From Pseudomonadota bacterium (GTDB lineage: Bacteria > Verrucomicrobiota > Verrucomicrobiia > Limisphaerales > SXTU01): a DNA stretch of 64,000 nt. The DNA lies in NCBI GenBank assembly GCA_009924135.1, contig RFSE01000006.1, forward strand, positions 1 to 64,000, read 5' to 3'. Position 1 is the stretch's first letter. Each line of letters opens with the position of its first letter. This document shows, piece by piece, positions 4,166 through 57,985 of this stretch. A program made the translations under genes and the position numbers. The notes below the pieces were generated by a model. The model was given only the letters and a program-made list of their open reading frames with translations. It was not told the origin of the DNA and ran no database searches.

Positions 4166-7100
4166 ATGAACATTTACCTTCGCGCGGCCCTCCTCGGGGT
4201 CCTCCTCGCCGCCCGTCCCTGCCCGGCCGGCCAGACCAATCTGAACGGCCGCACCTTCACGTTGCCCGATGGCTTCACGGTGGAACTCGTCGCCCGCGCG
4301 CCGCTCGTCAACCGGCCCGTGTCCATCGCCTTCGATCCGCATGGCCGGCTCTACGCGACGGATTCCTCGGGCTCCAGCGAGAAGGGGCCGACCCAGTACG
4401 AGCGCAAGGACCACCGCATCGTGCGGCTGGAGGACACGACCGGCACGGGCGTGTTCGACAAGTCGGTGGTGTTCGCGGACAAGATGATGTTCCCCGAGGG
4501 CGCGCTGTTTCACGACGGTTCACTCTACGTAGCCGCCCCGCCCCAGATCTGGAAGCTCACGGATACCGACGGCGACGGCATCGCGGACAAACGCGAGGTC
4601 TGGCACGATGGCAAGACATTGACTGGTTGCGCAAACGACCTGCACGGGCCGTACCTGGGACCGGACGGGTGGATTTACTGGTGCAAGGGCGCGTTTGCCG
4701 AGCAGCGCTACACGCTCCCGAATGGGAAGCCCTTCGTCACGCGCGCCTCGCACATTTTCCGCGCGCGGCCGGACGGCACGGGCCTCGAACCCGTGCTCAC
4801 CGGCGGCATGGACAATCCGGTGGGCGTGGCCTTTCACTCGACGGGCGAGCGGTTCCTGAGCTGCACGTTCGTGCAGCCCGGCGGCGGCAAGCGCGACGGC
4901 CTGCTGCACGCGGTGTACGGCGGCGTTTACGGCAAGGAGCAGTCCGCCCTCGACGGCCATCCGCGCACGGGCGATCTCATGCCGGTGATGACGCACATGG
5001 GCGCAGCCGCGCCGTGCGGGCTGACCACGTATCGCTCGCGCGTCTTCGGTGCTGACTGGTCGGACAACCTGCTCGCGTGCTACTTCAACCTGCACAAGGT
5101 CGTACGCCACGAACTGATCCCCGACGGCGCGACCTTCAAGACGAAGGACACCGACCTCCTCGCCAGCACCGACGTGGACTACCACCCGACGGACGTGCTC
5201 GAAGACGCGGACGGCAGCGTGCTCATCGTGGACACGGGCGGCTGGTACAAGATCTGTTGCCCCACCTCGCAGCTCGCCAAGCCCGACGTGCTCGGGGCGA
5301 TCTACCGGGTGCGCAAGACCGGCCAGCCCAAGTCGGAAGACCCGCGCGGCCTCAAGCTCAACTGGCCCGCCCTCCAGCCTGCCGACCTCGCCAAGCTTCT
5401 CGCCGATGAACGCCTCTATGTCCGCCAGCGCGCGATCCAGGAACTGGGCAAGCGCGGGGAAGCAGCGGTCCCGGCGTTGCGTGACGTGGTGGTAGCAGCC
5501 GACGTGAGGAGGCTCACTTCCAATCCGAAACCAGAAACAAAAAAGCAGAAACAGTTATCAGAGCCTCCTCACGTCGGCTGCTACCCGGGGGAAATTCGCC
5601 GCGACGCCGTGTGGGCGCTGTCGCACATTTCCGGTCCCGCTGCACGCGAGGCTGTGCGCACGGCCCTTAATGATACGGATGCCTCCGTCCGCCATGCGGC
5701 CATTCACGTGGCCAGCATCTGGCGCGATGGACACGCGGAAGGACGGCTCACGGCGATCAGCGAATCGGACGATGCCGCCCTGGCCCGCGCCGCTGCCGAA
5801 GGGCTCGGACGCATGAACGCCACCAACTCCGCAGCGGCCTTGCTGGCGGCAGCCGACCGGGCGCGCGCGAGCACCGCGACCATGTCGGACGCCCAGCGCG
5901 TCCTCTGGCACTCGCTCACCTACGCCGTCATTGAAATGGCATCGGGTGAAGCCATCGGCACGCAACTCACCGCCCGCGGGCCGACGGCCGCAACGCTCAT
6001 CGCCCTCGCGCACAGCGGGAGCACGGCACTCAAGCCGGAAGCCATCATCCCGTTGCTGCGTTCGCGCGACCCGGTGGTGAAGCAAACCGCACTGTGGATT
6101 GCCAGCCAGCGCTCAGACTGGGCTCCCCGGATTGCCAACACTTACTACCGAGACCTGTTTCATGACGTGATCCCAAAACCCGACCCGATCGATACGCCCA
6201 TGATTCTCGCCAAGCTCGCGAAGTTTCCTGAGGTCCAGGAATCGCTGGCGAGCCTCAGTGGGATTGCCCAAGTGCCACGTGACTCGCGGCTGATCGCATT
6301 GCGGGCGATGGCTGCATCCGGGGTGAAGGACACTCCAGCGCGCTGGGTTGCCACCGTCACTGAGTTGCTCACCAGCTCTGACAGTGAAATCCTCCGCCAG
6401 GCTGTTGCGACCTCGCGCACGTTCACGCCGCCGAAGACTACTTCCGTTGCGTTCATCCGCGCGTTGCAGGACGTCGGAGAGTCTGACTCCGGGCCAGCGG
6501 AAGTGCGTCTGGATGCCCTTGCCACCGCCGGCAGCCTGGCATCCGTTTCGGAACCGCTATTCTCCTTCCTGCGCACCAGCCTGGAGTCCACAAAGCCCAT
6601 GCTCACCCGCAGCGCCGCCGCAGGCGTGCTGGCCAAGGCGAAGCTGACCGGCACACAACAGCTTACCCTGGCCGACACGATGAAAGGCATTTCACCGCTG
6701 GATGCCCCGAAGCTGCTGCCGGTGTTTGAGAAGTCGCCAAACGAGGAGCTGGGCCTGAAACTCGTCGCGGCGTTGAAGGATTCCACCGGCTTGCGCGGGC
6801 TGCGCGTGGACCTGCTCAAGCCGCTGCTGGCGAAGTATCCGAAGTCCGTGCAGGACGCGGGCGCGGACCTGCTCACCCTGCTCAATGCCGACGCGGCAAA
6901 GCAACGCGCGCATCTGGAGGAACTGGTCCCGACGGTGCGCGATGGGGACGTGCGACGCGGGCATCAGCTCTTCAGCAGCCAGAAGGCCGCGTGCTCGACG
7001 TGCCACGCCATCGGTTACCTCGGCGGCAAGCTCGGGCCGGACCTCACGCGCATCGGGCAGGTGCGCACCGAGATGGATTTGCTGGAGAGCATCGTCTATC

Positions 7101-7360
7101 CGAGCGCGAGCTTCGTACGGAGCTACGAGCCGTTCACCGTCGTGCGCAAGGACGGCGAGGACGTGACCGGCATCGTACGCAAGGACGCCCCGGACGAGGT
7201 GATCCTCGCGAACGGTCCCGAGACCGAAGTGCGCATCGCCCGCGCCGACGTGGTGGAAATGCGCCCGGGCAAGGTGTCGCTGATGCCCGATGGTTTGGAG
7301 CAGGCGCTGACGAAGCAGGAGCTGGCGGATTTGCTCGCGTTTCTAAAGGCGGCGAAGTGA
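4166..7360 (+). CDS. PVC-type membrane-bound dehydrogenase/HEAT/CxxCH cytochrome protein
   Basis: signal peptide, beta-propeller N-half (FALDPHGRLYATDSSG-like), HEAT-like middle, C-terminal CSTCH heme motif. Confidence 0.88.
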   Translation: MNIYLRAALLGVLLAARPCPAGQTNLNGRTFTLPDGFTVELVARAPLVNRPVSIAFDPHGRLYATDSSGSSEKGPTQYERKDHRIVRLEDTTGTGVFDKSVVFADKMMFPEGALFHDGSLYVAAPPQIWKLTDTDGDGIADKREVWHDGKTLTGCANDLHGPYLGPDGWIYWCKGAFAEQRYTLPNGKPFVTRASHIFRARPDGTGLEPVLTGGMDNPVGVAFHSTGERFLSCTFVQPGGGKRDGLLHAVYGGVYGKEQSALDGHPRTGDLMPVMTHMGAAAPCGLTTYRSRVFGADWSDNLLACYFNLHKVVRHELIPDGATFKTKDTDLLASTDVDYHPTDVLEDADGSVLIVDTGGWYKICCPTSQLAKPDVLGAIYRVRKTGQPKSEDPRGLKLNWPALQPADLAKLLADERLYVRQRAIQELGKRGEAAVPALRDVVVAADVRRLTSNPKPETKKQKQLSEPPHVGCYPGEIRRDAVWALSHISGPAAREAVRTALNDTDASVRHAAIHVASIWRDGHAEGRLTAISESDDAALARAAAEGLGRMNATNSAAALLAAADRARASTATMSDAQRVLWHSLTYAVIEMASGEAIGTQLTARGPTAATLIALAHSGSTALKPEAIIPLLRSRDPVVKQTALWIASQRSDWAPRIANTYYRDLFHDVIPKPDPIDTPMILAKLAKFPEVQESLASLSGIAQVPRDSRLIALRAMAASGVKDTPARWVATVTELLTSSDSEILRQAVATSRTFTPPKTTSVAFIRALQDVGESDSGPAEVRLDALATAGSLASVSEPLFSFLRTSLESTKPMLTRSAAAGVLAKAKLTGTQQLTLADTMKGISPLDAPKLLPVFEKSPNEELGLKLVAALKDSTGLRGLRVDLLKPLLAKYPKSVQDAGADLLTLLNADAAKQRAHLEELVPTVRDGDVRRGHQLFSSQKAACSTCHAIGYLGGKLGPDLTRIGQVRTEMDLLESIVYPSASFVRSYEPFTVVRKDGEDVTGIVRKDAPDEVILANGPETEVRIARADVVEMRPGKVSLMPDGLEQALTKQELADLLAFLKAAK
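5491..5585. repeat. palindromic element inserted in frame within CDS 4166-7360
   Basis: perfect 25-bp inverted arms ggtagcagccgacgtgaggaggctc / gagcctcctcacgtcggctgctacc around a heptad-like loop; encodes VAADVRRLTSNPKPETKKQKQLSEPPHVGCYP. Confidence 0.9.
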
Positions 7361-7366
7361 TCGGGT

Positions 7367-7436
7367 AAGGTTTCAGGTTCAAGGGTTCAGGGTTCAGACA
7401 GGGTCGTTGAACTTCGAACCTGAAACCTGAAACCTT
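7367..7436. repeat. inverted repeat with 7-bp-period arms (ttcaggt/aacctga)
   Basis: aaggtttcaggttcaagggttcagggttcaga ... ttcgaacctgaaacctgaaacctt. Confidence 0.8.
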
Positions 7437-7453
7437 GCATCCTTAAACCTTTG

Positions 7454-7975
7454 CTAGGTTAGCAACACTCCCTCAACTGCCAACAACCTCCGCTTCCACT
7501 CCTGCCCGCCGGAGAAGCCGCCGAGGCGGCCGTTGGCGGCCAGCACCCGGTGACAGGGAATGAGCACCGGAATGGGATTGGCACCGCAACCGCCTCCAAC
7601 GGCCCGGGCGGCGCGGCGCTTGCCGAGGTCTTCGGCGATCTCGCCGTAGCTGCGGGTTTCGCCACGCGGGATACGTTGGAGCGCGTCCCAGACGCGCAGG
7701 CGGAACTTCGTGCCACCCGTGAGATCGAGCGGCGGGAGGGATGGTCGTCCGGTGCGCCGCGAAGTTTCGTTCAACGCGGCGAGCAGGGCGGTTTGCGTTT
7801 GCTCCGCCCACCGACGGAATGGAGCGGGGAGTTCATCGGCAGGCGTTGAAACGGGGCGCGTCCGCTTGCTGGGAAAATCCAGCCGGGCCAGACCTGCGGC
7901 CGAGAAGTGGGCGATGAACTCGCCGTGGGGCGTGGGGAGCGGCGCGGTGTGCAGGATTTCAGGTGGGCGTGGCAT
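7454..7975 (-). CDS. methylated-DNA--protein-cysteine methyltransferase
   Basis: IPVLIPCHRVLAANGRLGGFSGGQEWKRRLLAVEG: PCHRV active site. Confidence 0.9.
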   Translation of the reverse strand: MPRPPEILHTAPLPTPHGEFIAHFSAAGLARLDFPSKRTRPVSTPADELPAPFRRWAEQTQTALLAALNETSRRTGRPSLPPLDLTGGTKFRLRVWDALQRIPRGETRSYGEIAEDLGKRRAARAVGGGCGANPIPVLIPCHRVLAANGRLGGFSGGQEWKRRLLAVEGVLLT

Positions 7976-7978
7976 TAG

Positions 7979-8065
7979 GTGGATTAAGATTACGATTAAG
8001 ATGAAGCGCAAGAAGAGTCTGCCTGCCCATCTTGCCCGTAATCTTAATCGTAATCTTAATCCCGC
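7979..8065. repeat. inverted repeat gattaagattacgattaag / cttaatcgtaatcttaatc
   Basis: 19-bp perfect arms flanking about 40 bp. Confidence 0.8.
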
Positions 8066-12571: not shown

Positions 12572-12587
12572 AGCCGGGGAAAGTTTC

Positions 12588-12675
12588 CAGTAATCAGTGT
12601 TCAGTGTTCAGAACTTGCCCGTCCGGACGGGCTTTTGTTTCTGAATACTGAACACTGATTACTGAAAACTGATTT
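12588..12675. repeat. inverted repeat with heptad arms around a terminator
   Basis: cagtaatcagtgttcagtgttcag ... ctgaatactgaacactgattactg. Confidence 0.8.
12617..12640. terminator. bidirectional intrinsic terminator candidate between convergent asd and DUF374
   Basis: gcccgtccggacgggcttttgttt. Confidence 0.6.
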
Positions 12676-13369: not shown

Positions 13370-13379
13370 CGGGGGTTAA

Positions 13380-13485
13380 AAGTCCAAAGTCCAAAGTCCA
13401 AGGTCCAAGGTCCAAGGTCCAAAAAACATTCTGCGCGCAGGCCCCGTCGATGGACGTTGAGCGTTGCGCGTTAAGCGTTGAACGG
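13380..13485. repeat. two adjacent 7-bp-period tracts (tccaaag/tccaagg and gttgagc/gttgcgc/gttaagc)
   Basis: direct reading. Confidence 0.8.
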
Positions 13486-13501
13486 TTTCCCCTTTCATCC
13501 G

Positions 13502-19187: not shown

Positions 19188-19350
19188 AGTTGAGTCACGG
19201 ATGAACACGGATTAAACACGGAGCCAACCGTTCAGGGGCCGCCTCGCACCACTGCTTGGCCTGCCCCGTTTGAGGCAGACAGGCAACGTCGCCGAACCGC
19301 GCGCTCACCTCGTCCCCATCCGTGTTCCGTCCGTGTTTCATCCGTGGCTA
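19188..19350. repeat. dispersed ~165-bp repeat, copy 1 (cacggat...atccgtg arms)
   Basis: homologous to 31720-31884. Confidence 0.85.
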
Positions 19351-19378
19351 AAGAATCTTTCCGCCTCACGATTTCAGC

Positions 19379-21086: not shown

Positions 21087-21160
21087 AATTTATCAGGAAA
21101 GCAGGAATGAAAGAGAGCCGGGCTTCTGCACGTTCCTGCCTTCCTGCTTTCCTGATTCCA
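21087..21160. repeat. inverted repeat, ttcctgc-heptad family
   Basis: atcaggaaagcaggaatg ... cctgccttcctgctttcctgatt. Confidence 0.75.
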
Positions 21161-21165
21161 AACGG

Positions 21166-23646
21166 TCAATGGTTGAAGACGAATTCGGCGGAGTTCAGCA
21201 GCGCCCAGAGGATGTCTTCCACGGCGCTTTGGCGCGTCGCGTCTTTTGCAGAGAAGGCCTTTTTCGCCAGCGCCAGTTCCTCCTCGTTGGGCCGGCGGTT
21301 GTAGGTGCTCAGGTAGAGTTCCTTCACGATGTCGTCCTCGGTGGCCTTGCCGGCGGCGAGCTGGTGGGCGCGGCCCTCGGCAGCAGTCACCTTCGCATTG
21401 AGCTTCGTGGAGTTCATCATGTGGAGCGCCTGCACCATGCTGGGTTTGGCGTCGCGCTCGCAGGGGCACTCGGCGCTGCTGTTCGGGCGGCCGAAAGCAT
21501 CCATGAACTCGCTGCTGAGCATGTGGTTCCACGTCTGGAGCGCCCGTGAACCTTCGGCGAGCCCGTTGAACGTCTCGCGGGTGGCCGTCACCTGCATCAC
21601 GGCATCCAGCAACACCTCGGCAGGCAACCGGCGACGGTAGCTGCGGGAGTAGTTCTTCGTATCGCCGACGTTGGTCTCGTTCGCGGTGGAGCTGAGCTGG
21701 TACGTGTGCGAGTTGAGGATGGTCCGCATCAGGTGCTTGAGGTCGAACTTGTGCGCGACAAAATCCTTCGCCAGCCAGTCGAGCAGCGGCTCGTTCGTCG
21801 GCGGGTTTGACGCGCGGAAATCATCCACCGGGTCCACAATGCCGCGCCCGAAGAACTGCGCCCAGACACGGTTCACGGCGGCGCGGGCGAAGAGCGGGTT
21901 CTCGGGCTGGATCATCCAGTCCACCAGCACGGCACGCGGGTCGCGGTCAGTTGGGATGACGGCTTCGGGGCCATCGGGCGCTCGGGGCTTGAGGTCTTCA
22001 CCGGTGACCGGATGTTTCATGGCGACGCTCGACGTGGCCCAGATGTATTCCGGCTCGCCGCTGATGGGAGCGGAGATGCCCTGTCCCTTGCGCCGCGTGC
22101 CACTGAAGAAGGCGGCAAACTGATAATAATCCTTCTGGTCCCATTTCTCGCTCGGATGATGGTGGCAACGCGCACAGTCGAGCCGGACGCCGAGGAAAAC
22201 CTGGCTCACGAAACCGCTGGCGTCCTCGGGCGTGCGTTTGTCACGGAAGAGCGCGGGCGGACCGGTCTTGTGCGTGCTGCCCTGGGCGGTGAGCAGTTCG
22301 CGCACAAACTGGTCGTAGGGTTTGTTCTGGCGGAAGGAGTCGCGCAGCCACTGGTCCATGAGGAAGACCGGTTTCACTCCAACGCGGAAGGGGTTGCCAC
22401 GCACGAGATCGCCCCATTTTACGGCCCAGTGATCGGCCCACGCTGGATGTTCCAGCAGCCGGTCAATGAGCTTGGTCCGCTTGTCCGGCGACTTGTCATC
22501 CAGAAACGCGGTCGTCTCTTCGGCAGTGGGCAGCGTCCCGATGGTATCGAGCGACGCGCGGCGGAAGAATTCGGCGTCCGTGCAGCCGGCCGACGGCAGG
22601 TGACCAAGCTTTTGCAGCCGTTGATACACGAGCCGGTCAATGTCATTGCTCACCGGCAGCGCGGCGAACTGTTCCGGCGGCAACATGCGGTCGCTGGGCA
22701 CCATGATCGTGCTCACGGCCACGCGTCCGAGGAAGCGCGCGACCACCGCGCCTTCGCCGCTGAACTTGCCCACGCTCACGCGGCCCCCATCGTCCACGGT
22801 GGCGAGGGACTTTTCGTTGGACATGTATTCCGCGAGGTCGGTCACATCGCGCACCGCACCGTCCGAGTAGCGCGCCTGGATGAGCAACGGCTGGGCGGAC
22901 TCGCGGCGGTAACGGCGTTCCTTCGGAAACACTTCGATGCCCAGCAGATTCGGCTCGTTCGTGCGGGCGTACGGCATGCCCTGGGCAATCCAGTTCACCA
23001 ACGTGTGATAGTCCTCGGAGTCGCGCTCCAAGCGCAGCCCGCCATCGTGCGGCACGGCCAGCACGGACTTCTTGAGCAACAGGCTTTCCTCGGGGAAGGC
23101 CGGGAAAACGCGGCGGCCACGCGCACCCTTGATGATGCTGAGGTAGTCCGCGCGCGGGTCGTAGGCAAAGATGGTGAGCTTGAAACCGTTCTGGCCGTCG
23201 GACTTCGCATGGCAGGAACCGAGGTTGCAGCCGGCCTTGCTGAGGATGGGCAGCACGTCGTTGACGAAGCTCACTTGCTGACCCTCGGGCGCGGGGAGGA
23301 CCGTGACCTTCACGGTCGCGGACTTGCCGCCGAACGATGCGGTGATGGTCGCGGTACCGGGCGCAAGCGGCTGCACCTTGCCCTCCGGGCTGACCGCAGC
23401 CACGGCCGGTTTGTCGGAGGCAAACTTAGCCGGGGCGGGCACTTCAAAGCCGGCCTTGTCCGTGCCCGTCACCGCGAGCCGATGCGGCGTGGAGCCCGCG
23501 ATCAACGGCAGTTCAGCTGGAAAGACCGTGAGCGCGCTGACGGCGCGGAGTGGGGTCGGTGCGGACGAAGAAGCGGACTTCTGCGGCTGGGTACAGGCGC
23601 TCAGGAACACGGCCACGAGGCCACTGAGGAAGAAGTTTTTGGCCAC
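21166..23646 (-). CDS. DUF1549/DUF1553 domain-containing lipoprotein (PVC-type)
   Basis: GTG start VAKNFFLSGLVAVFLSAC; Big2-like repeat; VLPILSKAGCNLGSCHAKSDGQNGFKLTIFAYDPRADY. Confidence 0.85.
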   Translation of the reverse strand: MAKNFFLSGLVAVFLSACTQPQKSASSSAPTPLRAVSALTVFPAELPLIAGSTPHRLAVTGTDKAGFEVPAPAKFASDKPAVAAVSPEGKVQPLAPGTATITASFGGKSATVKVTVLPAPEGQQVSFVNDVLPILSKAGCNLGSCHAKSDGQNGFKLTIFAYDPRADYLSIIKGARGRRVFPAFPEESLLLKKSVLAVPHDGGLRLERDSEDYHTLVNWIAQGMPYARTNEPNLLGIEVFPKERRYRRESAQPLLIQARYSDGAVRDVTDLAEYMSNEKSLATVDDGGRVSVGKFSGEGAVVARFLGRVAVSTIMVPSDRMLPPEQFAALPVSNDIDRLVYQRLQKLGHLPSAGCTDAEFFRRASLDTIGTLPTAEETTAFLDDKSPDKRTKLIDRLLEHPAWADHWAVKWGDLVRGNPFRVGVKPVFLMDQWLRDSFRQNKPYDQFVRELLTAQGSTHKTGPPALFRDKRTPEDASGFVSQVFLGVRLDCARCHHHPSEKWDQKDYYQFAAFFSGTRRKGQGISAPISGEPEYIWATSSVAMKHPVTGEDLKPRAPDGPEAVIPTDRDPRAVLVDWMIQPENPLFARAAVNRVWAQFFGRGIVDPVDDFRASNPPTNEPLLDWLAKDFVAHKFDLKHLMRTILNSHTYQLSSTANETNVGDTKNYSRSYRRRLPAEVLLDAVMQVTATRETFNGLAEGSRALQTWNHMLSSEFMDAFGRPNSSAECPCERDAKPSMVQALHMMNSTKLNAKVTAAEGRAHQLAAGKATEDDIVKELYLSTYNRRPNEEELALAKKAFSAKDATRQSAVEDILWALLNSAEFVFNH

Positions 23647-23679
23647 AGATGAAACACAGATGGAACGAAGCAAAGATGA

Positions 23680-23765
23680 ATCAGGAAAGCAGGAAGGCAG
23701 GAAGTTAATCTGGCCCGAGCGGCGACCGCCCTTTCCTGCATTCCTGCATTCCTGATTAATCCGTT
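23680..23765. repeat. inverted repeat, ttcctgc-heptad family
   Basis: atcaggaaagcaggaaggcaggaag ... tttcctgcattcctgcattcctgatt. Confidence 0.8.
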
Positions 23766-23809
23766 TTTCCTGATCTGTGTCCCATCTGTGTTTCATCTGT
23801 GGCTAAAAA

Positions 23810-31719: not shown

Positions 31720-31884
31720 CAGTTGAGCCACGGATGGCACACGGATTAAACACGGAGCCAACTCTGCAAAGGCCACCTCGCCCCTCTGCTTGACCCGCAC
31801 CGGTTGGTCCAAGCAGGCGACTTCGACAAACCGCGTGCTCAACTCGTCCCCATCCGTGTTTCATCCGTGTTTCATCCGTGGCTA
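31720..31884. repeat. dispersed ~165-bp repeat, copy 2
   Basis: homologous to 19188-19350. Confidence 0.85.
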
Positions 31885-37854: not shown

Positions 37855-37879
37855 TTTTTGGACTGCGCCGGCAGAGCGT

Positions 37880-38757
37880 GTGGCAGGCAGGCATCCTGCC
37901 TGCCGTAAAGCCGCGGCTTCCAGCCCGGCGGACCAAAACGTCCGTCCACCCGATCACGCACGCACAACCCCGCGTCCCAGGACTCCTCACGCCTTTCCGG
38001 GCGGCAAGATGCCCGCCCTCTACGGCAGGCAGGATGCCTGCTGCCACAGGCGCGTCTATTTTTCCGAAGCAATCACCTAATCGGGCCGTGACGGGACTGT
38101 GCACGTAGTGAAATGCGGGGACTTGTCACCGCTTTCTCCAGGCGACTTGTCGCCGTCGAAGGCTGCTAACGTTAGAATGAACTCACGGGCCGGCACTCGC
38201 GCGAGCGCCGTGACGCACGTCAACCCGCACGCCAACATGACCTCGACGGCGACAAGTCGCCTGCGGAAAGCGGCGAGAACTCGCCGCACTCCAAAGGGCG
38301 CACGCCCACCCCTGTGGCGGCGGGCATCTTGCCTGCCGTAGAGCCGTGGCTTCCAGCCCGGCGGAACAAGCCGCCCGGCCACCCGATCACGCACGGACAA
38401 CCCCGCGTCGCAGGACACCTCACGCCTTTCCGGGCGGCAAGACGCCCGCCCTCTACGGCAGGCAGGATGCCTGCCGCCACAAGCACGTCTTTTTTCCGAA
38501 GCACCCACCCGATCGGGCTACCACAGGGTTTCGCACATTGTGGAGTGCGGGGACTTGTCCCCGCTTTCCGCAGGCGACTCGTCGCCGTCGAAGGCTGATA
38601 GGAATGGAAAGGCTGCACGGGCTGGCGCTCGCGCGAGCGAAGTGACGCACATCAACCCCACGTCAACATGACCTCGACGGCGACAAGTCGCCTGCGGAAA
38701 GCGGCGAGAACTCGCCGCACTCCAAAGGGCGCACGCCCCACCCCTGTGGCGGAGGCT
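37880..38757. repeat. two-fold tandem array of two palindromic elements (A1-B1-A2-B2, ~435-445 bp period)
   Basis: A: ggcaggcaggcatcctgcctgccgta...tacggcaggcaggatgcctgc; B: cggggacttgtc-ccgctttc-caggcgac-tgtcgccgtcgaaggct...gcggcgagaactcgccgcactccaaagggcgcacgcc; each occurs twice in order. Confidence 0.88.
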
Positions 38758-38840: not shown

Positions 38841-39521
38841 ATGAAAATGAAATGCCTTCTCGTGGTTCTCACCTTGGCACTTGCGCCGATCGCTCAGGCG
38901 AGGATGAACATGGGGGTGACGGTTCCAGAGCTGTTTGAAAAAGCCCCACTGGTCATCACCGGCGAAGTCACTGCGATTGAGCCGCTGGGTGTCGAAACGA
39001 CGCTGGTTTACCCCACTCTACGTGGTGCAACCTTTCATTGGTTACGTGTCACTCTGGTGGTGAGCACCGTGCTCAAAGGCGCGTTCACCGAGAAATCGAT
39101 CGATGTGGCCATGTTAGCGGTAAAGAAGGCACCAGCAGATGGACTGGATGACCCGCCGCGAATGCTTTCGCCGAGGAAATGGCATAAGTATGTGATGTTT
39201 CTCGCACCGAGTCCGAGGAAGGGTGTTTTCGTTTCGATTGGGGCTCCTTACAACGAAGTGGACGCCATTTTTATCCTGGACCGGCAAGCCAAGCTGACTA
39301 TGTCTTCGGTCGCAGGCCAAAAGGAGCTGGTTTGGGCGTTGATAACCTCTGATGGCGAATTCTCACAAAGCGGTGCGCAGGCCGTTGCACGTAAACTTGC
39401 AACGCAAATTGGCAAGCAGAACTCAAAGCTCATTCTTCCTCTTGAATATCGGGGCGAAACTAACGCTCAGGGGTGGTTTATCGACGTCCCTAAAAGCACG
39501 CCAGAGCCCAGCCGTAAGTGA
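38841..39521 (+). CDS. secreted hypothetical protein
   Basis: signal peptide MKMKCLLVVLTLALAPIAQA; 226 aa. Confidence 0.6.
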   Translation: MKMKCLLVVLTLALAPIAQARMNMGVTVPELFEKAPLVITGEVTAIEPLGVETTLVYPTLRGATFHWLRVTLVVSTVLKGAFTEKSIDVAMLAVKKAPADGLDDPPRMLSPRKWHKYVMFLAPSPRKGVFVSIGAPYNEVDAIFILDRQAKLTMSSVAGQKELVWALITSDGEFSQSGAQAVARKLATQIGKQNSKLILPLEYRGETNAQGWFIDVPKSTPEPSRK

Positions 39522-39609
39522 GGGTTTAGGTAACTCCCTCCGCCTCCCGCGCGTCTGTAGACTCATTGCAACGTCCCTTGATTCCGACATACTGCCTGCA
39601 CCTTCAGCC

Positions 39610-42600
39610 ATGAACTTGCTCCGTTTAACTCGGCCCATCACCACGCGATCCTCAACATTGGCAGGGCGCGGTGTCCTCACCACGCCGCTGAGGCGTCCGA
39701 ACGGTTGGGCGGCGCGCTGGGGACAGACGCGCCCTACCTTGCACGCCTTCCTCGCGCCTATCGCGGTCGCACTCGCACTGCAATTCAGTTCCGCCCCGCT
39801 CCTCGCCGCCCCCGCCGATGACGCGCAGCAGATCCTCCAGGCCGCCGGCGTCAAGGGCGGCCTCGTCGTCCAGCTCGGGTTGGGCGATGCCGCGCTGACC
39901 GCCGCGTTGCGGGCGAACAACAGTTATCAGGTCGTCGCGCTCGACGCGGACACGCAGAAGGTCACCGCCGCGCGTGAGGCGATCTTTGCACAGGGCAAAT
40001 ACGGCCCCGTCAGTGTCGAGCCGTTCACGGGCGCGCGGTTGCCGTTCATTGATAATCTCGTGAACCTCGTCGTCGCCGAGAACCTCGGCAGCGTGCCACA
40101 AGTCGAGGCGCTCCGCGTGCTGGTGCCCAACGGCGTGCTGCTCACCAAGGTCGCCGGCCAGTGGCAGAAGACCGTAAAACCCAAGGACGCCAATCTCGAC
40201 GAATGGACGCACTACTTCTACGACGCGAAGGGCAACGCCACCTCGAAGGACAAGGTCGTCGCGCCCCCCGAGCGGCTCCAGTGGGTCGGCTCGCCGCGCT
40301 GGTCGCGCCACCACGACCGCATGAGCAGCCTCAGCGCACAGGTGTCCTCCGGCGGCCGGCTCTTCTACATCATGGACGAAGGCTCGCGCATCTCCATCCT
40401 ACTCCCGGCCAAGTGGAACCTGATCGCGCGCGACGCCTTCAACGGCACGATCCTCTGGAAGCAGCCCATCGCCTCGTGGAACACGCATCTCTGGCCGCTG
40501 AAGTCCGGCCCCACGCAGCTCACGCGCCGGCTCGTTGGCGATGGCGACCGCGTCTTCGTCACGCTGGGCATCGAGGCGCCCATCAGTTGCCTGGACGGCG
40601 CGACGGGCCAGCCGTTGTTCACCTGCGAAGGCTCGCGCGGCGCGGAGGAATTCGTCGAGGCGAACGGGGTGATCTATGCCCTCATCAATCCGCGTCCGTG
40701 GGTGCTGGAGGAATTCGCCGTGAAGCAGCAGAGCGACCAAAACCGCGTGGTGAACGAGTACAACTGGGATCAGAAGCCGCGCGATCTCGCCGCGTTCGAC
40801 GCGAAGACCGGCAAGCTGCTCTGGCGGAAGGCCGATCAAAAGATCGCGCCCATCACGATCGCCTGTGACGGCGAGCGGCTGGTGTATCACAACGGCGATT
40901 CCATCGTTTGCCTCGATCCCACCAGCGGCGCGCAACGCTGGGCCAGCGAGAAGGCCACGAAGCGTTCACTCTTTGAGTTCAACTACGCACCGCGGGTCGT
41001 TCTCTCCGGCAAGACCATCCTCTACGCCGGCGGCGACGGGGCGCAGCGCGGCGTGGACGCCGAGACGGGCAAGGTGCTCTGGCAGGACACGCATGAGAAG
41101 TCCGGCTACCGTTCGCCCGAGGATTTGATCGTCGCGGGCGGCCTCGTGTGGAACGCCGGCACGCTGCAAGGGAACCAAAAGGGAGAGTTCAAGGGCCGCG
41201 ACCTGCGCACCGGTGAGGTGAAGAAGCAGTTCTCGCCCGACGTGCCGGACGGCACCTACTGGTTCCACCACCGCTGCTACATCGCCAAGGCCACGGAGAA
41301 TTTCCTCATCCCATCCCGCACGGGCATCGAGTACGTGGACATCAACAAGCAACACTGGGACCTCAATCACTGGGTGCGCGGCGCGTGCCTCTACGGCGTG
41401 ATGCCCTGCAACGGCCTCACCTACGCCGGCCCGCACAACTGCGCCTGCTACCCGGAGGCGAAGCTCGACGGCCTGAACGCGATGGCCGGCGGCGCAGGCA
41501 CACCGCACCCCATCCGCGCCGAAGCCACGCGGCTCATCAAGGGACCGGCCTTCAACTCCCCGCTCGAAGCCGAGGCCGACGCGAAGGACTGGCCCACCTA
41601 CCGGCACGACAACAAACGCTCCGGCTACAGCAACCAAGCGTTGTCCGAGGATTTGTCCAAGACCTGGGAACTCAAGCTTGGCGGGCCGCTCTCCACGCTC
41701 ACCATCGCAGCGGGCAAGGTCTTCGTCGCGCAGGTGGACGCGCACACCCTGCACGCACTGGATCACGCCACGGGCCAGCCGGTCTGGCATTTCATCGCCG
41801 GCGGGCGTGTGGATTCCCCGCCGACTTACTGGCAGGGCCGCGTTTACTTCGGCGGCATGGACGGCGTGGTGTATTGCCTCCGCGCGAGCGACGGGGCGCT
41901 GGTCTGGGAGTATCACGCCGCGCCGGGCGACCGCCGGCATTGTGCGTTGGAGCAGTTGGAGAGCGTCTGGCCGGTGCACGGCAGCGTGCTCGTCGAGAAC
42001 GGCCAGGTCAGCCTCGTAGCGGGCCGCAGCGTGTTCCTCGACAACGGCCTGCGGTTCGTGAAACTCGACGCCAAGACCGGCGCGCTGGTCGCGGAGCAGA
42101 CTTACAACCACATCGACCCCGAGACCGGTGGCGACTTTCAGAACCGCCACAAGACGCTCCAAATGCCCGTGGGTTTGAACGACATCCTCAGCAGCGACGG
42201 CAAGTGGACCTACCTCCGCACCCAGAAGATCGCCGCCGACGGCAAACGCGTGGACATCGGGCCCGTGAGCAACAACGCCGTTGAGCAGGGGGCAGCGCAG
42301 AAGGGCGAAGGCGCGCATCTCTTCGCGCCGATGGGCTTCCTCGATGATTCGTGGTTCCACCGCAGCTACTGGGTCTATGGCAAGAGCTTTGCCGGCGGGC
42401 ACAACGGTTACTACCAGGCCGGCAAGTACACGCCGTCCGGCCGCATCCTCGTGCATGATGACAAGAACGTTTATTCCTACGGACGCGAGGCGCAGTATTT
42501 CAAGTGGACCACCACGATGGAGCACCAGCTCATGCGCCAGCCCAAGGAAGCGCCCGACGTAAAACCCGACCTCGGGCAGGGCGGCCCGGCCGGCAAGCAG

Positions 42601-43612
42601 AAGGGCAAGGCTCCCGCCGCCACCGGCGCGCAACCACTCGTCGTCACCTATGCGCAGACCGAGAAGATCAACATCGCCGGCAGGCCCTTCACGCTGGAAA
42701 TCTGGGCGTTGCCGGATGGCAAGGACGGCGTGCTCATCAGCCACGGCGGCCCGCAGAACGGCGCGGGGCTGATCCTGGTGGAAGGAAAACCTGCCTTCGT
42801 CATCAACAGCAGTTCCACCCACGCCCGCGCGTCTGCTTCCGCTCCCTTGCTGGAGGGCTGGCATCACCTCGTCGGCGTGCTTGAGCCGGACAAGACGATG
42901 AAGCTCTACGCGGACGGGCAGATCGTGGCGCAGTCGAAGTCCGAGTTCGTCGCCGCGCAGCCCAAGCAGCCGCTGCGCCTCGGTGGCGATGGCAACAACA
43001 ACCTGGCGGGCGAGACGCTCACCGCACCCTACACCGGCATGATGGACCAGTTCGCGATTTACTCGCGCGCCCTCTCCGGCACCGAGGTGCAGGCCCGGCT
43101 CGCCGATCCCACCGTGAAGACGGACAAGACGATTGTGCTCTTCTCCTCCTTCGACAAGGGCGATGCCCGCGATGAGGCGGGGAACAACCACCGCTGCCGT
43201 CGCGCCGGCGAATCCGGCCCAACCCGGCCAGCCCGCCCCGGCTGCCGCGCAGAAGGGCACCTTCGTGCAAAACGACTGGCAGCGCTACGTCCCCATCATC
43301 ACGCGTGCGATGACCATGGCCGGCAAGACGCTCTTCGTGAGCGGCGCGGAGGATCTCGTGGACGAGGAATACGCCTTCGAGCGCCTTGCCGCGAAGGACA
43401 AGAGCATCCTCCAGCAGCTTCAGGAGCAGGACGACGCCCTCGAAGGCAAACGCGGCGCGATGCTTTGGTCCGTGTCCGTCGAAGACGGCAAGCAAGGTGC
43501 CGGACTGAACCTCGCCAGCCCGCCCGTTTGGGACGGCATGATCGTGGCGCAGGGCCGTCTGTATGTGTCCAGCTTGGATGGAGTGGTGCGGTGTTTTGGG
43601 AAGGGGAAGTAG
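39610..43612 (+). pseudogene. PQQ-type beta-propeller protein with N-terminal methyltransferase-like and C-terminal LamG-like domains, frameshifted near 43190
   Basis: GGLVVQLGLGDAALTAALRANNSYQVVALDADTQKV; propeller repeats; LamG-like VTYAQTEKINIAGRPFTLEIWALPDGKDGVLISHGG; real C-terminus FVQNDWQRYVPIITRAMTMAGKTLFVSG in a second frame. Confidence 0.75.
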
Positions 43613-43719
43613 ATGACAAAGCATCGTGCTTACATTCAGCAATGAATGCATCTGAGCAAATTGCTGCGGCGCTTAGCAGACGGGGTAATCCGTCCGGCAG
43701 CCAACCCGGGTGAATCCGG

Positions 43720-43835
43720 AAAGCAGGAATACAGGAAGGGGAACCTCCCGATGACCAAATCGCTCTCTTCCTGCTTTCCTGTTTTCCTGATTAGAGCAAT
43801 CTCTCTTCCTGCCTTCCTGCTTTCCTGATTAAAGC
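43720..43835. repeat. ttcctgc-heptad inverted/direct repeat region
   Basis: ggaaagcaggaatacaggaag ... cttcctgctttcctgttttcctgatt ... cttcctgccttcctgctttcctgatt. Confidence 0.75.
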
Positions 43836-46560: not shown

Positions 46561-49269
46561 CTAGGTGGCCGCGCACTGTTTTACAGCCTCGACGCACCGG
46601 GGACAAAGGGTCGCGTGCTCGGGGTTCGTGCCGACTTCGGTTTCCGTGTGCCAGCAGCGTTCGCACTTCGTACCGGCAGCCTTGCTGACCAGCGTTGAAC
46701 TGGCCGCATCACCGTTGGCGTGGATTTCGAGCTGCGAGGTGTTGAGCAGTTCGCGCAGGGCTTCGGCGTGAATCTTGCCGTCCACGTAGAGCGGACCGGA
46801 GCCATTCAAGGTCAATTTGGCCTCGAGGGACTTGCCAATTTCCTTGGCCTGCCGGGCCTTCTCCAGTTCCGGCAGGGTTTGGACACGGAGTTTGAAGAGA
46901 CCATCCCACGCCGCTGTTTCTGCGTCGGAACGGTTGAAGGGCTGCGGAGCCCACTCAGCAAGATGCACGCTGGGCGTGGGTTTGCCGGGGATGAATTCCC
47001 AGGCTTCGTCGGCGGTGAAAACGAGGACGGGGGCGAGCATCTGGCAGAGGCGCGTGACCATGCGGTGCAGCGCGGTCTGCGTGCTGCGGCGGCGCGCGGA
47101 GTTCGCGGGGTCGGTGTAGAGGCGGTCCTTCACCACGTCGTTCTTGAGGCGCTCCTCGCTCACGACGATGTCGTTGCGGTAGTCCTGGCTGGCGACCCAC
47201 AGGCGCAGCACGTCCGCGCCGTATTCGTTCACGTAACGGTCGGCGGTCTGGGGCTTGGTGTAGCCGCCCTGCCCTTGCTTGCTCTTTGAGATCTTCTCGC
47301 GGTCTTCGTCCACCATGAAGCCGTGCGTGAGCACGGTCTTGAACGGCGCAGCCCCGTTGCCGGCGAGGGAGAGGAGCAGCGAAGATTGAAACCAGCCGCG
47401 ATGCTGGTCGGAGCCTTCGAGATACACATCCGCTTGCCAGCCGAGTTGGGAGTTGGGAGTTGGGAGTTGGGAGTTGGGGGCGGCCGAGTCGACGTGCTGA
47501 AGTTCTGACCGGCGCATGAGGACGGCGCGGCTGGAGCTGCCGGAGTCGATCCACACGTCGAGCGTGTCGGAGGACTTGGCGACGGCCTCGCGGCCGGTCC
47601 AGTCAGCGGGGCGGCAGAGGGTCCAGAGGTCGGCGGCGGTCTTCTCGAACCACACGTTGCTGCCGTGCTGCTCGAAGAGGCCGGCGGCCTTGCGGACGAT
47701 GGCGGCGTCTAGGATCGGCTCGCCCTGCACGTCGTAGAACGCCGGAATGGGCACGCCCCAACTGCGCTGGCGCGAGATGCACCAGTCAGGCCGGGATTTT
47801 ACCGCGCCCTCGATGCGGTTCTTGCCCCAGTCGGGTATCCAGTTCACGCGGTTGATTTCTTCCAACGCGCGTGCGCGGAAGGTCATCCCCGTAGGAGACG
47901 AGGTGACGAGTCTCTGACTGGATTCCGCATTCCGCATTCCGAGTTCCGCATTTGAAGCGAGACTCCTTACGTCGTCTCCTACGTGATCAACTTTGATAAA
48001 CCACTGGTCCATCGCTCGGAAAATGATCGGGGTCTTGCTGCGCCAGCAGTGCGGGTAGCTGTGGTGGTAGTTCTCCTGGTGGAGCAACGCATTGCGCACG
48101 CGGAGTTCGTGGAGGACGGCGTCGTTGGCGTCGCTGCGACCGTGCTTTTCGAGGATGGACTTGCCGAGCAGTTCGGCGGGCATCTGCTGCTCCACCGGCA
48201 GGTCGGCGGTGTGGGCGAGACAGCCCTCGTCATTGACGGGCGAGTAGATCGGCAGGCCCTCGCTGCGACCGAGATTGTAGTCATCCGCACCATGGCCGGG
48301 CGCGATGTGCACAAAGCCCGTGCCCGTGTCCGCCGTGACAAACGCGGCCGCGAACAACTGGCCGGTGCGCGCACAGAACGGGTGCTCGTAGGAAAGCGAT
48401 TCGAGTTCCTCCGCCGAGACGGTGCGCTCGATCTGGTAGTTGCCCGCCCAGCCACACTTCTGCGTGACGCTTTCGAGCAACGAGTTGCAGATCAGGTAAA
48501 CGTTCCCGTCGGCAATGATGCGGGAGTAGAAGAGGTCAGGGTTGAAGGCCACGGCGAGGTTCGCGGGCAGCGTCCAGGGCGTGGTGGTCCAGATGAGGAT
48601 GAAGGTGTTCGGCTCGCCGACGAGCTTGAACTTCACATAGACCGACTGGCTGACGTGGTCGGCGTACTCCACCTCGGCCTCGGCCAACGCGGTGCGGCAC
48701 GGGATGCTCCAATACACCGGCTTCTTGCCGCGATAGACGAAGCCCTGCGCGACGAGATCCGCGAACAGGCGCAGTTCGTCGGCCTCGTACTCCTTGTTGA
48801 GCGTGAGGTAAGGGTTTTGCCAGTCACCAAAGACGCCGAGGCGCTTGAACTGCGTGCGCTGGAGGTCGATGTATTTGCGGGCGTAGGCATCGCAGGCGGT
48901 GCGGATGGTGGCGGGATCGCTCGCGGTATCGCCGGCCTTGCGCATGTCCTGCGAGACCTTGAACTCGATGGGCAGGCCGTGGCAGTCCCAGCCGGGGACG
49001 TAGGGGGCATCCTTGCCGCGCAGAGTCTGGTACTTGACGATGACGTCCTTGAGCACCTTGTTCAGCGCGGTGCCGACATGGACATCACCGTTGGCGAAGG
49101 GCGGGCCATCGTGGAGGACGAACTTCTCGCGGCCGGCCCGGGCCGAGCGAATCTGCGCGTAAATCTGGTCGGCCTCCCAGCGGGCGAGGCGTTGCGGTTC
49201 GCGCGCGACGAGGTCGGCCTTCATGGCGAAGTCCGTGCGCGGCAGATTCAGCGTGTTCTTGTAGTCCAT
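46561..49269 (-). CDS. ileS: isoleucine--tRNA ligase
   Basis: VLHDGPPFANGDVHVGTALNKVLKDVIVKYQTLRGKDAPYVPGWDCHGLPIE; KISKSKQGQGGY; C-terminal zinc motif CERCWH...CPRCV. Confidence 0.95.
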   Translation of the reverse strand: MDYKNTLNLPRTDFAMKADLVAREPQRLARWEADQIYAQIRSARAGREKFVLHDGPPFANGDVHVGTALNKVLKDVIVKYQTLRGKDAPYVPGWDCHGLPIEFKVSQDMRKAGDTASDPATIRTACDAYARKYIDLQRTQFKRLGVFGDWQNPYLTLNKEYEADELRLFADLVAQGFVYRGKKPVYWSIPCRTALAEAEVEYADHVSQSVYVKFKLVGEPNTFILIWTTTPWTLPANLAVAFNPDLFYSRIIADGNVYLICNSLLESVTQKCGWAGNYQIERTVSAEELESLSYEHPFCARTGQLFAAAFVTADTGTGFVHIAPGHGADDYNLGRSEGLPIYSPVNDEGCLAHTADLPVEQQMPAELLGKSILEKHGRSDANDAVLHELRVRNALLHQENYHHSYPHCWRSKTPIIFRAMDQWFIKVDHVGDDVRSLASNAELGMRNAESSQRLVTSSPTGMTFRARALEEINRVNWIPDWGKNRIEGAVKSRPDWCISRQRSWGVPIPAFYDVQGEPILDAAIVRKAAGLFEQHGSNVWFEKTAADLWTLCRPADWTGREAVAKSSDTLDVWIDSGSSSRAVLMRRSELQHVDSAAPNSQLPTPNSQLGWQADVYLEGSDQHRGWFQSSLLLSLAGNGAAPFKTVLTHGFMVDEDREKISKSKQGQGGYTKPQTADRYVNEYGADVLRLWVASQDYRNDIVVSEERLKNDVVKDRLYTDPANSARRRSTQTALHRMVTRLCQMLAPVLVFTADEAWEFIPGKPTPSVHLAEWAPQPFNRSDAETAAWDGLFKLRVQTLPELEKARQAKEIGKSLEAKLTLNGSGPLYVDGKIHAEALRELLNTSQLEIHANGDAASSTLVSKAAGTKCERCWHTETEVGTNPEHATLCPRCVEAVKQCAAT
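47445..47485. repeat. heptad repeat (gttggga)n inside ileS, encoding PNSQLPTPNSQL
   Basis: gagttgggagttgggagttgggagttgggagttggg read directly. Confidence 0.9.
47891..47982. repeat. palindromic element in frame inside ileS
   Basis: arms gtaggagacgaggtgacgagtctc / gagactccttacgtcgtctcctac around heptads attccgc; arm consensus shared with 5491-5515 and 50696-50719. Confidence 0.9.
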
Positions 49270-49434
49270 AAGCTGCTCAAAGAGCGGGGACGCTAGCAGC
49301 CGGCGCAGGGGCAATCAAGCAGCGCGCAGGCTCAGGCGGACGCCGGGCAGGGATAATTTGATTGTCGGCACGCCATTTTTTGGCTAGACACTCCGCGAAT
49401 TCGCCGGGCACCGGTCCCGGCCACAGCCACCTAA

Positions 49435-55366: not shown

Positions 55367-57421
55367 ATGAAAAAACTCAAAGTCCGGCAAAAACTGATGC
55401 TCTTGGGGGGGTTGTTCTCCCTGCCGTTTCTGGCTGTCCTGATTTATGATCTGGCCTTCAAAAAGGCCCGGCATGACTGGGTTATACCGAAGGCCGAAAT
55501 CGCGGCCGTCAGCGTCCAGCCTGCCCTGCTCAAGTTGTGTCACGAGTTGCAGGTTTATCGGGATCTCGGACACGCCGTTGCCAACACCAACGAGGTGCTG
55601 CGGCCGCTGTTTGACCTGCAGCCAGAAGTCGTAAAACAGGCCATCAGCAGCGCGGACCTGGCGATCAGTCCGACCAACAACCCGCCCACCGAATTGATCG
55701 AAGGACTGGAGGATGAGTGGCGCAAACTCAAGGAGCAGATCGAGACCACGCTCAAACGCCCCGCTCCGGACAAGCCGGCGCAGGCCTACGCCGAACGGTC
55801 CAAGCTCATTGACGACACCCGGGCCCTGGCGAGTTTTGTCGGCGACAAATCCGGCCTGAGCGACGAATCCAGCGAGGCCCGGTATCACCTCATGACCGCG
55901 ATTCAATGGCGCGGCCCGGACCTGCTCGTCGCGTTGGCCAATGCCCGGGGAATTTGCAACGGACTGGCCTCGCGGGGCACCACGGTGGCGCAAACGGACA
56001 ATCAGAAGGCGGAGTTCGAGGAGCTGGCGCGGAACCTGCAAAACATCGAAAACGCCCTGACCAGTTCTGAAGGGACGCTGTTCACGGCGGTGGCCTGGGT
56101 CATGAACAAGCGAATTGGCCTGAAGCCGCGCTTTGAAAGCGAGTACCGCGTCGCGCTGGATACGGTGGGCGACGCTGCCAAAGACATCCGCCACACCTTG
56201 TCGGAGAAAAGAGCGGACCTGTCGGCGAAAGATTTCCACGAGAAGCTCACCCGGGCGACCACCGCAGTGCTCCGGCTGGAAGACAAGGTCGCCCAGACCC
56301 TGATCGAGGAGTTTAAGACGCAGATCGACCATTTCAAAGTGGATGCCCTGCAAGAGGTGGCCAAATTCACCCTGAGCCTGACGGTCGTGCTGGGTTTCAT
56401 CTGGTCCATAAGCAATGGCATTACCGGGCCGCTGGACGAAGTGGTCGAGGCGGCCGACCAGATTGCCGAAGGTGACCTGACCGTCAACGTCTCTTCGCAG
56501 GACCGCGGCGACGAAATGGGCAACCTGCTCCGGGCGCTCCAACGGATGGTGCGCAGCCTCAATGACATCGTCGGGCAGGTGCAGAAATCCGGCCTGCAAG
56601 TCAACACCTCGGTCAACCAGATTTCCGTGACCGGAAAACAGCAGCAGGCCACGGCGAACGAGATCGCTGCCACCACCACCGAGATCGGGGCGACCGCGAA
56701 GGAGATTTCCGCCACCTCGCTGGAACTGGTGAACATGATGAAGGACGCTACCGACGTGGCCGAGGACACCGCCGCGCTGGCCAACAAGGGGCAGGAAGGA
56801 TTGTCCCGCATGCGCGAGACCATGACCCAGCTCACGGATGCCGCCGGCCTCATCCAGGCCAAGCTGGCCGTGCTCAACGAAAAGGCCGCCAACATCAACC
56901 AGGTGGTCACGGCCATCACGAAGATTGCCGATCGCACCAACTTGCTGTCCCTAAACGCCGCCATCGAAGCGGAGAAGGCCGGCGAATATGGCCGTGGGTT
57001 CTCGGTCGTCGCCACCGAGATCCGCCGGCTGGCCGATCAGACGGCTGTGGCCACTTATGACATCGAGCAGATGGTGAAGGAGATGCAGGCCGCCGTGTCG
57101 GCCGGCACGCTGGGGATGAACCAGACCGCCGAGGACATTCGCAGCGGCGTCAAAGAGGTCCAGGCGGTCGGCGCCCAGCTCGCCCAGATCATCCAGCAGG
57201 TCCAGGCCCTGGCCCCGCGCTTTGAGTTGGTCAACTCCGGCATGCAATCGCAGGCCACGGGCGGCCAGCAGATCAGCGATTCCCTGACCCAGCTCACCAA
57301 GGCCGTCCAACAAACCGCCCAGTCGCTGGACCAATCCAACCAGGCCATCGAACAACTCAAGAGCACGGCCTACGCCCTGCGCGAAGGCGTGGCGCGCTTC
57401 AAACTGCCGGGGGGAAGATGA
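55367..57421 (+). CDS. methyl-accepting chemotaxis protein with HAMP
   Basis: GPLDEVVEAADQIAEGDLTVNVSSQDRGDEMGNLLRAL; LLSLNAAIEAEKAGEYGRGFSVVATEIRRLADQTAVA. Confidence 0.93.
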   Translation: MKKLKVRQKLMLLGGLFSLPFLAVLIYDLAFKKARHDWVIPKAEIAAVSVQPALLKLCHELQVYRDLGHAVANTNEVLRPLFDLQPEVVKQAISSADLAISPTNNPPTELIEGLEDEWRKLKEQIETTLKRPAPDKPAQAYAERSKLIDDTRALASFVGDKSGLSDESSEARYHLMTAIQWRGPDLLVALANARGICNGLASRGTTVAQTDNQKAEFEELARNLQNIENALTSSEGTLFTAVAWVMNKRIGLKPRFESEYRVALDTVGDAAKDIRHTLSEKRADLSAKDFHEKLTRATTAVLRLEDKVAQTLIEEFKTQIDHFKVDALQEVAKFTLSLTVVLGFIWSISNGITGPLDEVVEAADQIAEGDLTVNVSSQDRGDEMGNLLRALQRMVRSLNDIVGQVQKSGLQVNTSVNQISVTGKQQQATANEIAATTTEIGATAKEISATSLELVNMMKDATDVAEDTAALANKGQEGLSRMRETMTQLTDAAGLIQAKLAVLNEKAANINQVVTAITKIADRTNLLSLNAAIEAEKAGEYGRGFSVVATEIRRLADQTAVATYDIEQMVKEMQAAVSAGTLGMNQTAEDIRSGVKEVQAVGAQLAQIIQQVQALAPRFELVNSGMQSQATGGQQISDSLTQLTKAVQQTAQSLDQSNQAIEQLKSTAYALREGVARFKLPGGR

Positions 57422-57423
57422 GG

Positions 57424-57540
57424 GGAGAATCCAGTATCCAGAATCAAGAAGTCAGGAGTCAGAAGACAGGGCTTCGGCTAGCTTCGGCTTCGGGCTTCCT
57501 CCCCCTGACTCCTGAATTCTGACTCCTGAATCTCCCCCCC
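57424..57540. repeat. inverted repeat with heptad arms between MCP and CheW genes
   Basis: ggagaatccagtatccagaatcaagaagtcaggagtcag ... ctgactcctgaattctgactcctgaatctcc. Confidence 0.75.
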
Positions 57541-57541
57541 G

Positions 57542-57985
57542 ATGCTCTTCCTCGTCTTCCAAGTCGGTGCCGATCGCTACGCGCTGGAGGCGGTGCGGAT
57601 CATCGAGGTGCTGGCCATGGTGGAACTGCAAAAGATCGCCGGGGCACCAGTCGGCACGGCGGGTGAATTTGTCTATCGGGGCGAGTCGGTGCCAGTGCTG
57701 GACTTGTGCCTCCTGACGCTGGGCCGCTCGTCCAACCTGCGCCTGAGCACGCGCATCATCCTGCTCCGGCACGAAGCCCAGGGCGGCGGGCAAAAGCCGC
57801 TGGGCCTGATCGCCGAACACGCCACCGAATTGGTGACCAAGGGGCTCGGAGAATTCACCTCCGTGGGGGACGCGCTCGTCGCGTCGGATCCGCGTGGCCG
57901 GCTCCGCCTGCTGCAGCTCGACAAGCTGCTCAGCCCCGAGTTGCGCGACCTGCTGGCGGTGTATTATTTCACCCAGACACTTTAG
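57542..57985 (+). CDS. cheW: CheW-family protein, WspB-like
   Basis: MLFLVFQVGADRYALEAVRIIEVLAMVELQKIAGAPVGTAGEFVYRGESVPVLDLCLLTLGR. Confidence 0.88.
   Translation: MLFLVFQVGADRYALEAVRIIEVLAMVELQKIAGAPVGTAGEFVYRGESVPVLDLCLLTLGRSSNLRLSTRIILLRHEAQGGGQKPLGLIAEHATELVTKGLGEFTSVGDALVASDPRGRLRLLQLDKLLSPELRDLLAVYYFTQTL

Follow-up and report, generated by a model that had tools for sequence, protein, structure and literature searches.

The window, i.e., the whole stretch of 64,000 nucleotides analysed here, contains a gap of 93 nt between the convergent genes 4166-7360 (+) and 7454-8011 (-), within which lies an inverted repeat whose two arms are built of tandem heptads. The earlier note on this DNA had described this locus and five others as heptad tracts paired as inverted repeats. 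Inverted repeats are indeed found at all six loci, but heptads form the arms at just three of them (7367, 12588, and 57424), the units being 8-mers at 21087 and 23680 and 6-mers at 7979. Genes were called with a custom script and named from Pfam and NCBIfam, and the repeats considered here are the following:

7365-7438, no strand: heptad hairpin TTCAGGT/GGTTTCA, left word GGTTTCAGGTTCAAGGGTTCAGGGTTCAG, in the 93-nt convergent gap; the locus on which the earlier note was centred
7981-8062, no strand: hexad hairpin GATTAA/GATTAC (GATTAAGATTACGATTAAGATG and its inverse), with tandem genes on either side
12582-12670, no strand: heptad hairpin GTGTTCA, AGTAATCAGTGTTCAGTGTTCAG, in the gap separating two convergent genes, a semialdehyde dehydrogenase gene and a DUF374 gene
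12617-12632, + strand: GCCCGTCCGGACGGGC followed by TTTTG, in the loop of the 12582-12670 hairpin, recognised by direct reading and folding
21092-21156, no strand: octad hairpin ATCAGGAAAGCAGGAA, between convergent genes
23675-23761, no strand: octad hairpin CAGGAAAGCAGGAAGGCAGGAA, enclosed by the arms of an 11-mer inverted repeat (23636-23809)
43713-43830, no strand: octad hairpin with a single left arm and two right ones; its start coincides with the stop codon that ends gene 39385-43713 (+)
47440-47483: heptad tract GAGTTGG x5 inside ileS (gene 46561-49314, - strand; TIGR00392), compared among relatives
47890-47983, no strand: second variable insert in ileS (variable site 47884-47983), an inverted repeat around heptads ATTCCGC
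57422-57537, no strand: heptad hairpin CAGGAGT/CAGAATC, occupying a 120-nt gap that is flanked by the gene of an MCP-type receptor (55367-57421) and by one with a CheW domain (57542-57985)

The 8-mer words of the hairpins at 21092-21156 and 23675-23761 are CAGGAAGG/CAGGAATG. When predicted RNA folds are compared with those of dinucleotide shuffles, z values of -6.0 (7365), -9.8 (7981), -13.3 (12582), -5.3 (21092), -5.9 (23675), and -2.3 (57422) are obtained; no shuffle was as stable as the native fold at the first five loci, while 5 of 200 were at 57422, where the effect is moderate. Among tandem-repeat lags from 4 to 19, those of 7, 8, 11, and 14 are prominent in the window, with three to six tracts each compared with 0.0 in local shuffles. 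A scan of the window against Rfam gave no match for the hairpins, no rRNA, and a single tRNA.

Other repeats are present in the same DNA. The 11-mer inverted repeat at 23636-23809 (CACAGATGAAACACAGATGG) encloses the octad hairpin as if one element had been inserted into another, and positions 37879-38756 contain two tandem copies (period 433) rich in REP-like inverted repeats (GTGGCGGCAGGCATCCTGCC). Moreover, a second 11-mer hairpin family (CACGGATGAA) is represented at 19190-19352 and 31726-31883; its two copies resemble each other in their 96-nt loops and in their flanks.

Genomic Placement of the Hairpins

Across 450 kb of the genome to which the window belongs, 69 hairpins reach a score of at least 14, compared with none in block shuffles. 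A gapped search at this threshold places such hairpins in 19 of 45 convergent gaps, 25 of 128 tandem gaps, and 4 of 48 divergent gaps (0, 0, and 1 in shuffles, respectively). Among gaps of 25-400 nt, all 25 short-period hairpins lie in convergent or tandem ones, while the 56 divergent gaps have none; the hairpins mostly span the entire gap and start at most about 10 nt from the stop codon.

This location at gene 3' ends, together with the absence of short-period hairpins from divergent gaps, would suit bidirectional transcription terminators or 3'-end stabilisers, whose arms would be remade by selection at gene ends and whose repeats would be a by-product of slippage. The pairing of the arms also persists while their words change, and the small GC hairpin in the loop at 12617-12632 looks by itself like an ordinary intrinsic terminator, although it constitutes a separate exception. 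However, a U-tract directly after the stem (at least six T in 9 nt) was found at none of the 25 short-period hairpins, a result on which termination was rejected as the whole explanation. Since U-tracts are missing and some hairpins are located inside operons (a BMC operon and the MCP/CheW pair), these structures are not ordinary terminators; similar repeat inserts even occur within ileS. Moreover, termination does not explain why a single gene family is framed by this architecture in many phyla or why homology stops at the arm edges (both described below), and it is thus an unlikely account of the hairpins.

The octad family of CAGGAAGG occupies about 28 loci in the window's own genome, with near-identical arms and, at almost all of them, unrelated loops. 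This combination of the same arms with unrelated loops is not explained by simple transposition of the arms together with their loop.

Orthologous Gaps and an Empty Site in Related Genomes

Ten genomes of the genus of the window's genome were used for comparison. In these relatives, the orthologous gaps are either empty or occupied by a hairpin with a different word in both arms. The gap at 57422-57541 carries a hairpin in seven of eight species, belonging to three or four word families, and measures 27 nt in G003. A gap of a microcompartment operon that lies outside the window in the same genome (L007:12530-12622) contains hairpins with a score of at least 9 in seven of nine species, with several unrelated words. 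The hairpin at 7981-8062 is missing from most relatives, whose genes abut there, and the equivalent of 21092-21156 in G004 is a 46-nt gap devoid of a hairpin.

At the site L007:14499-14625, six species read TGAGCC (or TGAGCG/TGAACC) followed by ATG, i.e., a stop-start junction without insert, while inserts of three word families are present in the other four (the window's genome, G005, G008, and G009). The insert of G009 is complete and consists of heptad arms around a full gene of the IVP family (TIGR02436, PF05635). The insert of the window's genome exhibits similar arms around a shrunken loop that retains stretches resembling both ends of the IVP gene, and is the one gene-deletion intermediate seen. 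Thus, the hairpins at this site are insertions and not a single ancestral hairpin that changed gradually.

Variation among relatives also extends to coding DNA. The heptad tract of ileS at 47440-47483 is replaced by GTTGAAG in G010 and by GTTTGGA in G002, and nothing similar is found in G004. The second ileS insert corresponds to 8-mer inverted arms (GGTGGGCAGGTGGGAGAG) in G010 and is absent in G004, with an in-frame difference of 84 nt.

Architecture of IVP Elements

IVP (or S23p) proteins are the 23S-rRNA-intervening-sequence protein family, four-helix bundles described by PF05635 and TIGR02436, with 16 hits in the window's genome. Many of these genes lie between inverted tracts of 7-mers or 8-mers, with a word particular to each gene. 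The same architecture occurs in many phyla, with words that are private to the element and common to its two arms: inverted tandem repeats of 7 or 8 nt with private words bracket 110 of 155 IVP loci (the other 45 being below the arm criterion), compared with 1 of 87 controls, which are genes of comparable size. Within the phylum (72 loci), arms of the same locus reach a score of 14 in 45 cases, whereas left and right arms taken from different loci do so in 8 of 432 pairings; the pairing therefore lies well above the chance level between tracts that the earlier note had set against its own reading. In the set from other phyla, whose loci were drawn from the 80 best pattern matches and are not a random sample, matching arms are found at 62 of 78 loci as opposed to 22 of 468 mismatched pairings, and all 62 have a period of 7, 8, or 14. 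The scan for IVP genes across collections was performed with a narrow alignment, the broad IVP alignment being too diverse. Among the genes located between far-apart periodic arms, no cargo other than IVP recurs with any consistency.

Several rules characterise these elements. Firstly, the 5' arm comprises about 31 nt and is poor in C (11% vs. 28% in the flanks). Secondly, AG is phase-locked within the units of 65 arms, compared with 41.8 ± 3.1 when unit positions are permuted, and AGT is phased in 26 arms (6.9 ± 1.7 permuted); in gene-less hairpins, too, AG is phased more often than any other pair (21 of 25). Thirdly, a same-strand open reading frame ends at the left arm in 90 of 107 elements, at a median distance of 1 nt, compared with 280 of 1100 random positions. 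In addition, two elements (L114 and L154) encode proteins that are 84% identical and lie in unrelated flanks, and their DNA alignment spans exactly from arm to arm. Since homology is bounded by the arms, the mobile unit is defined here as arm-to-arm. Arms of different elements rarely align with one another, and the alignment across loci revealed unrelated words and no conserved end sequence.

Unusually long arms of about 60-70 nt, with eight to ten units, occur at IVP elements L177 (G078), L208 (Candidatus Hydrogenedentota), and L168 (G064). At L007 7078-7449, heptad inverted arms (AGTAATTAGTGGTTAGT) enclose an open reading frame of 123 amino acids that matches no Pfam or NCBIfam model and for which no ortholog was found at the same place in relatives; it is possibly a second cargo gene. 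The 11-mer family CACGGATGAA mentioned above represents a dispersed element of another kind, conserved in its loop and never found around IVP genes here.

Relationship between the Window Hairpins and IVP Elements

The left arm at 7367 (AAGGTTTCAGGTTCAAGGGTTCAGGGTTCAG) aligns almost from end to end with an arm from a gene-bearing element of the same genus (L132 in G004, with L112 as the ortholog in the window's own genome). The two arms are near-identical, with a score of 26 of 31 compared with 12 for the reversed control. The arm at 12582 finds its best IVP counterpart in L153 (TTCAGTGTTCAG; 15.5, control 7), and that at 57422 matches IVP arms weakly (9.5). No clear match to IVP arms was obtained for the 6-mer, 8-mer, and 14-mer hairpins; hence, in the window, hairpins with 6-mer or 8-mer units are assigned by architectural analogy, and the hexad hairpin at 7981-8062, akin to IVP elements by shape only, may represent a related class. 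Elsewhere in the window, a single gap at 13370-13501 contains unpaired heptad tracts (AAAGTCC x6 and CGTTGAG-type), whose word family matches the arms of IVP locus L111 in the same genome.

The window hairpins themselves enclose no open reading frame. Across nine genomes of the phylum, the density of hairpins shows no clear correlation with that of IVP genes (Spearman coefficient 0.33, p 0.38). Two IVP-rich genomes exhibit no gene-less hairpin in 100 kb each, and G001, a genome 82% complete, has no IVP hit and yet contains heptad hairpins. On the whole, we regard it as likely that the heptad hairpins of the window, and probably its 8-mer hairpins as well, are gene-less forms of a small insertion element resembling the rRNA intervening sequences (IVSs).

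Concerted Change and the Origin of the Arms

The earlier note had taken the presence of heptads in both arms as a sign that arms are copied, for instance through template switching or snap-back synthesis, and had proposed a comparison of the arms for concerted changes. This comparison gives a divided answer, since orthologous gaps do carry a new word in both arms but one-sided changes are commoner than double ones. The gene-bearing orthologs yield 87 double changes that restore pairing, compared with at most 17.4 expected if the two sides were independent (about fivefold), and one-sided changes amount to 271 against 116 double ones. In a second set, composed mostly of gap hairpins, 234 one-sided changes stand against 72 double ones, 43 of which are pair-restoring. 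Since each species pair enters these counts in both directions, their cells are not independent. Thus, concert between the arms is present over longer times and weak over short times. This pattern is consistent with selection for pairing combined with the replacement of elements by new copies and is no proof that one arm is copied from the other. Continuous arm copying was rejected, as one-sided changes dominate.

The idea of the earlier note would have the arms of a hairpin arise in place, with heptads expanded by slippage as the substrate for template switching during replication or for snap-back synthesis. It accommodates words that are private to a locus and common to both of its arms, as well as the excess of pair-restoring double changes over the independent expectation. 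However, it is at odds with the clean empty site and the insertion of whole units, with the recurrence of one word at about 28 loci whose loops are unrelated, and with the predominance of one-sided changes, and it does not predict the strict period of 7-8, the C-poor polarity, or the phased AG. The empty site, the arm-to-arm homology, the word with about 28 loci, and the one-sided excess render arm copying unnecessary and partly contradict it, and we consider an origin of the arms on the spot improbable. Most likely, the two arms arrive together as the ends of one inserted element.

Comparison with Known Repeats

A close anatomical parallel is the IVS of 23S rRNA. In Coxiella, this sequence forms a 28-bp stem and contains GACAGAT heptamers before the S23p ORF, in numbers that vary between strains, and it is excised by RNase III (PMC4990558). 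The IVSs of Coxiella burnetii and Leptospira share with the elements described here a terminal inverted-repeat stem of about 28 bp, the same protein family, tandem heptamers before the ORF (GACAGAT also has AG once per unit), the existence of ORF-bearing and ORF-deleted forms, and presence or absence among relatives (PMC4990558). The elements found here differ in lying between protein genes at stop codons and in their many word variants. Whereas IVSs are located in 16S or 23S rRNA genes, the window hairpins are intergenic and the window contains no rRNA; seven short 23S motifs are absent from the IVP loci L186-L265. A long stem formed by terminal inverted repeats is present, and the S23p/IVP ORF of long forms occurs in the related elements and not in the window hairpins themselves. 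Thus, the window hairpins are not IVSs by rRNA location, and they resemble IVSs by anatomy.

In Xanthomonas, GGGAATC heptads are intergenic and close to a neighbouring ORF, with 70 in inverted pairs, and have been interpreted as G-quadruplexes (Rehm et al. 2015, PMC4692102). The same species encodes an IVP member, Xcc0516. In contrast to the elements described here, one word per genome is reported, and the accessible part of PMC4692102 makes no link to IVP genes. A Xanthomonas member of the IVP family crystallised as a pentameric torus (Lin 2006, cited in PMC4990558), and PDB entry 2GSC has five chains.

It could also be proposed that the hairpins are REPIN- or MITE-like and moved by a transposase encoded elsewhere (e.g., Y1/RAYT), with IVP genes as mere passengers between the arms. 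The REP ends of REPINs have a conserved sequence, while the copies found here carry private, unrelated words without a conserved end sequence and have only the period and the phase of AG in common. The dispersal of copies within one genome, the hairpin shape, and the excess of gene-less over gene-bearing forms do recall the small, dispersed, mostly gene-less inverted-repeat elements of the REPIN/RAYT system (PMC3116915). However, IVP is the sole cargo found with any consistency between periodic arms, and an unsystematic look revealed no linked transposase, so that this alternative appears very improbable.

Proposed Mechanism and Implications

The mechanism of mobility and the role of the IVP protein can be outlined as follows for an inserted, IVS-like element. 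The RNA of the element would fold into a long stem and, by analogy with the 23S rRNA IVS of Coxiella, would be cut by RNase III, and the element would therefore be tolerated between operon genes without harm. More speculatively, the ring-shaped IVP protein might bind the AG-phased units, one per subunit, and might either aid movement of the element or protect its RNA, while gene-less copies might be mobilised in trans or be decayed complete elements. Word turnover would result from slippage and selection on pairing, plus replacement by other copies. In the ring-shaped trp RNA-binding attenuation protein (TRAP), each subunit binds one of a series of NAG triplets at regular spacing. The likeness to TRAP is one of idea only, that of a ring reading spaced units, since TRAP is a protein unrelated to IVP, its spacing is about 5 as opposed to 7-8 here, and binding by IVP is putative. 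A homologous four-helix bundle is present in Avd of diversity-generating retroelements, and a TIGR02436 member also matches the Avd model (the homology is noted in PMC10053308); in passing, neither a reverse transcriptase nor a pair of template and variable repeats was noticed at these loci.

A broader and tentative proposal, which we hold to be possible but doubtful, is that IVP/S23p proteins belong to a class of mobile elements spread throughout bacteria, in which period and phase, and not sequence, would mark the ends for recognition. The pentameric ring would read one AG-bearing unit of 7-8 nt per subunit, would target translation stop sites, and would tolerate free change of the words as long as the arms pair; the IVSs of 23S rRNA would then be a few copies that landed in rRNA. 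In the open literature searched, i.e., outside subscription journals, no paper linking IVP genes, inverted heptad arms, and IVSs was found.

What S23p/IVP proteins do, and where rRNA intervening sequences come from, are questions that date from the 1990s. The IVP family is here tied, in many phyla, to a fixed DNA architecture outside rRNA, for which a repeat period, a rule for the phase of the units, a site of insertion, and a comparison with the empty site are given. These features make both the function of IVP and the origin of IVSs directly testable. Moreover, these elements offer a possible explanation for some of the inverted heptad repeats that have been described separately in other bacteria.
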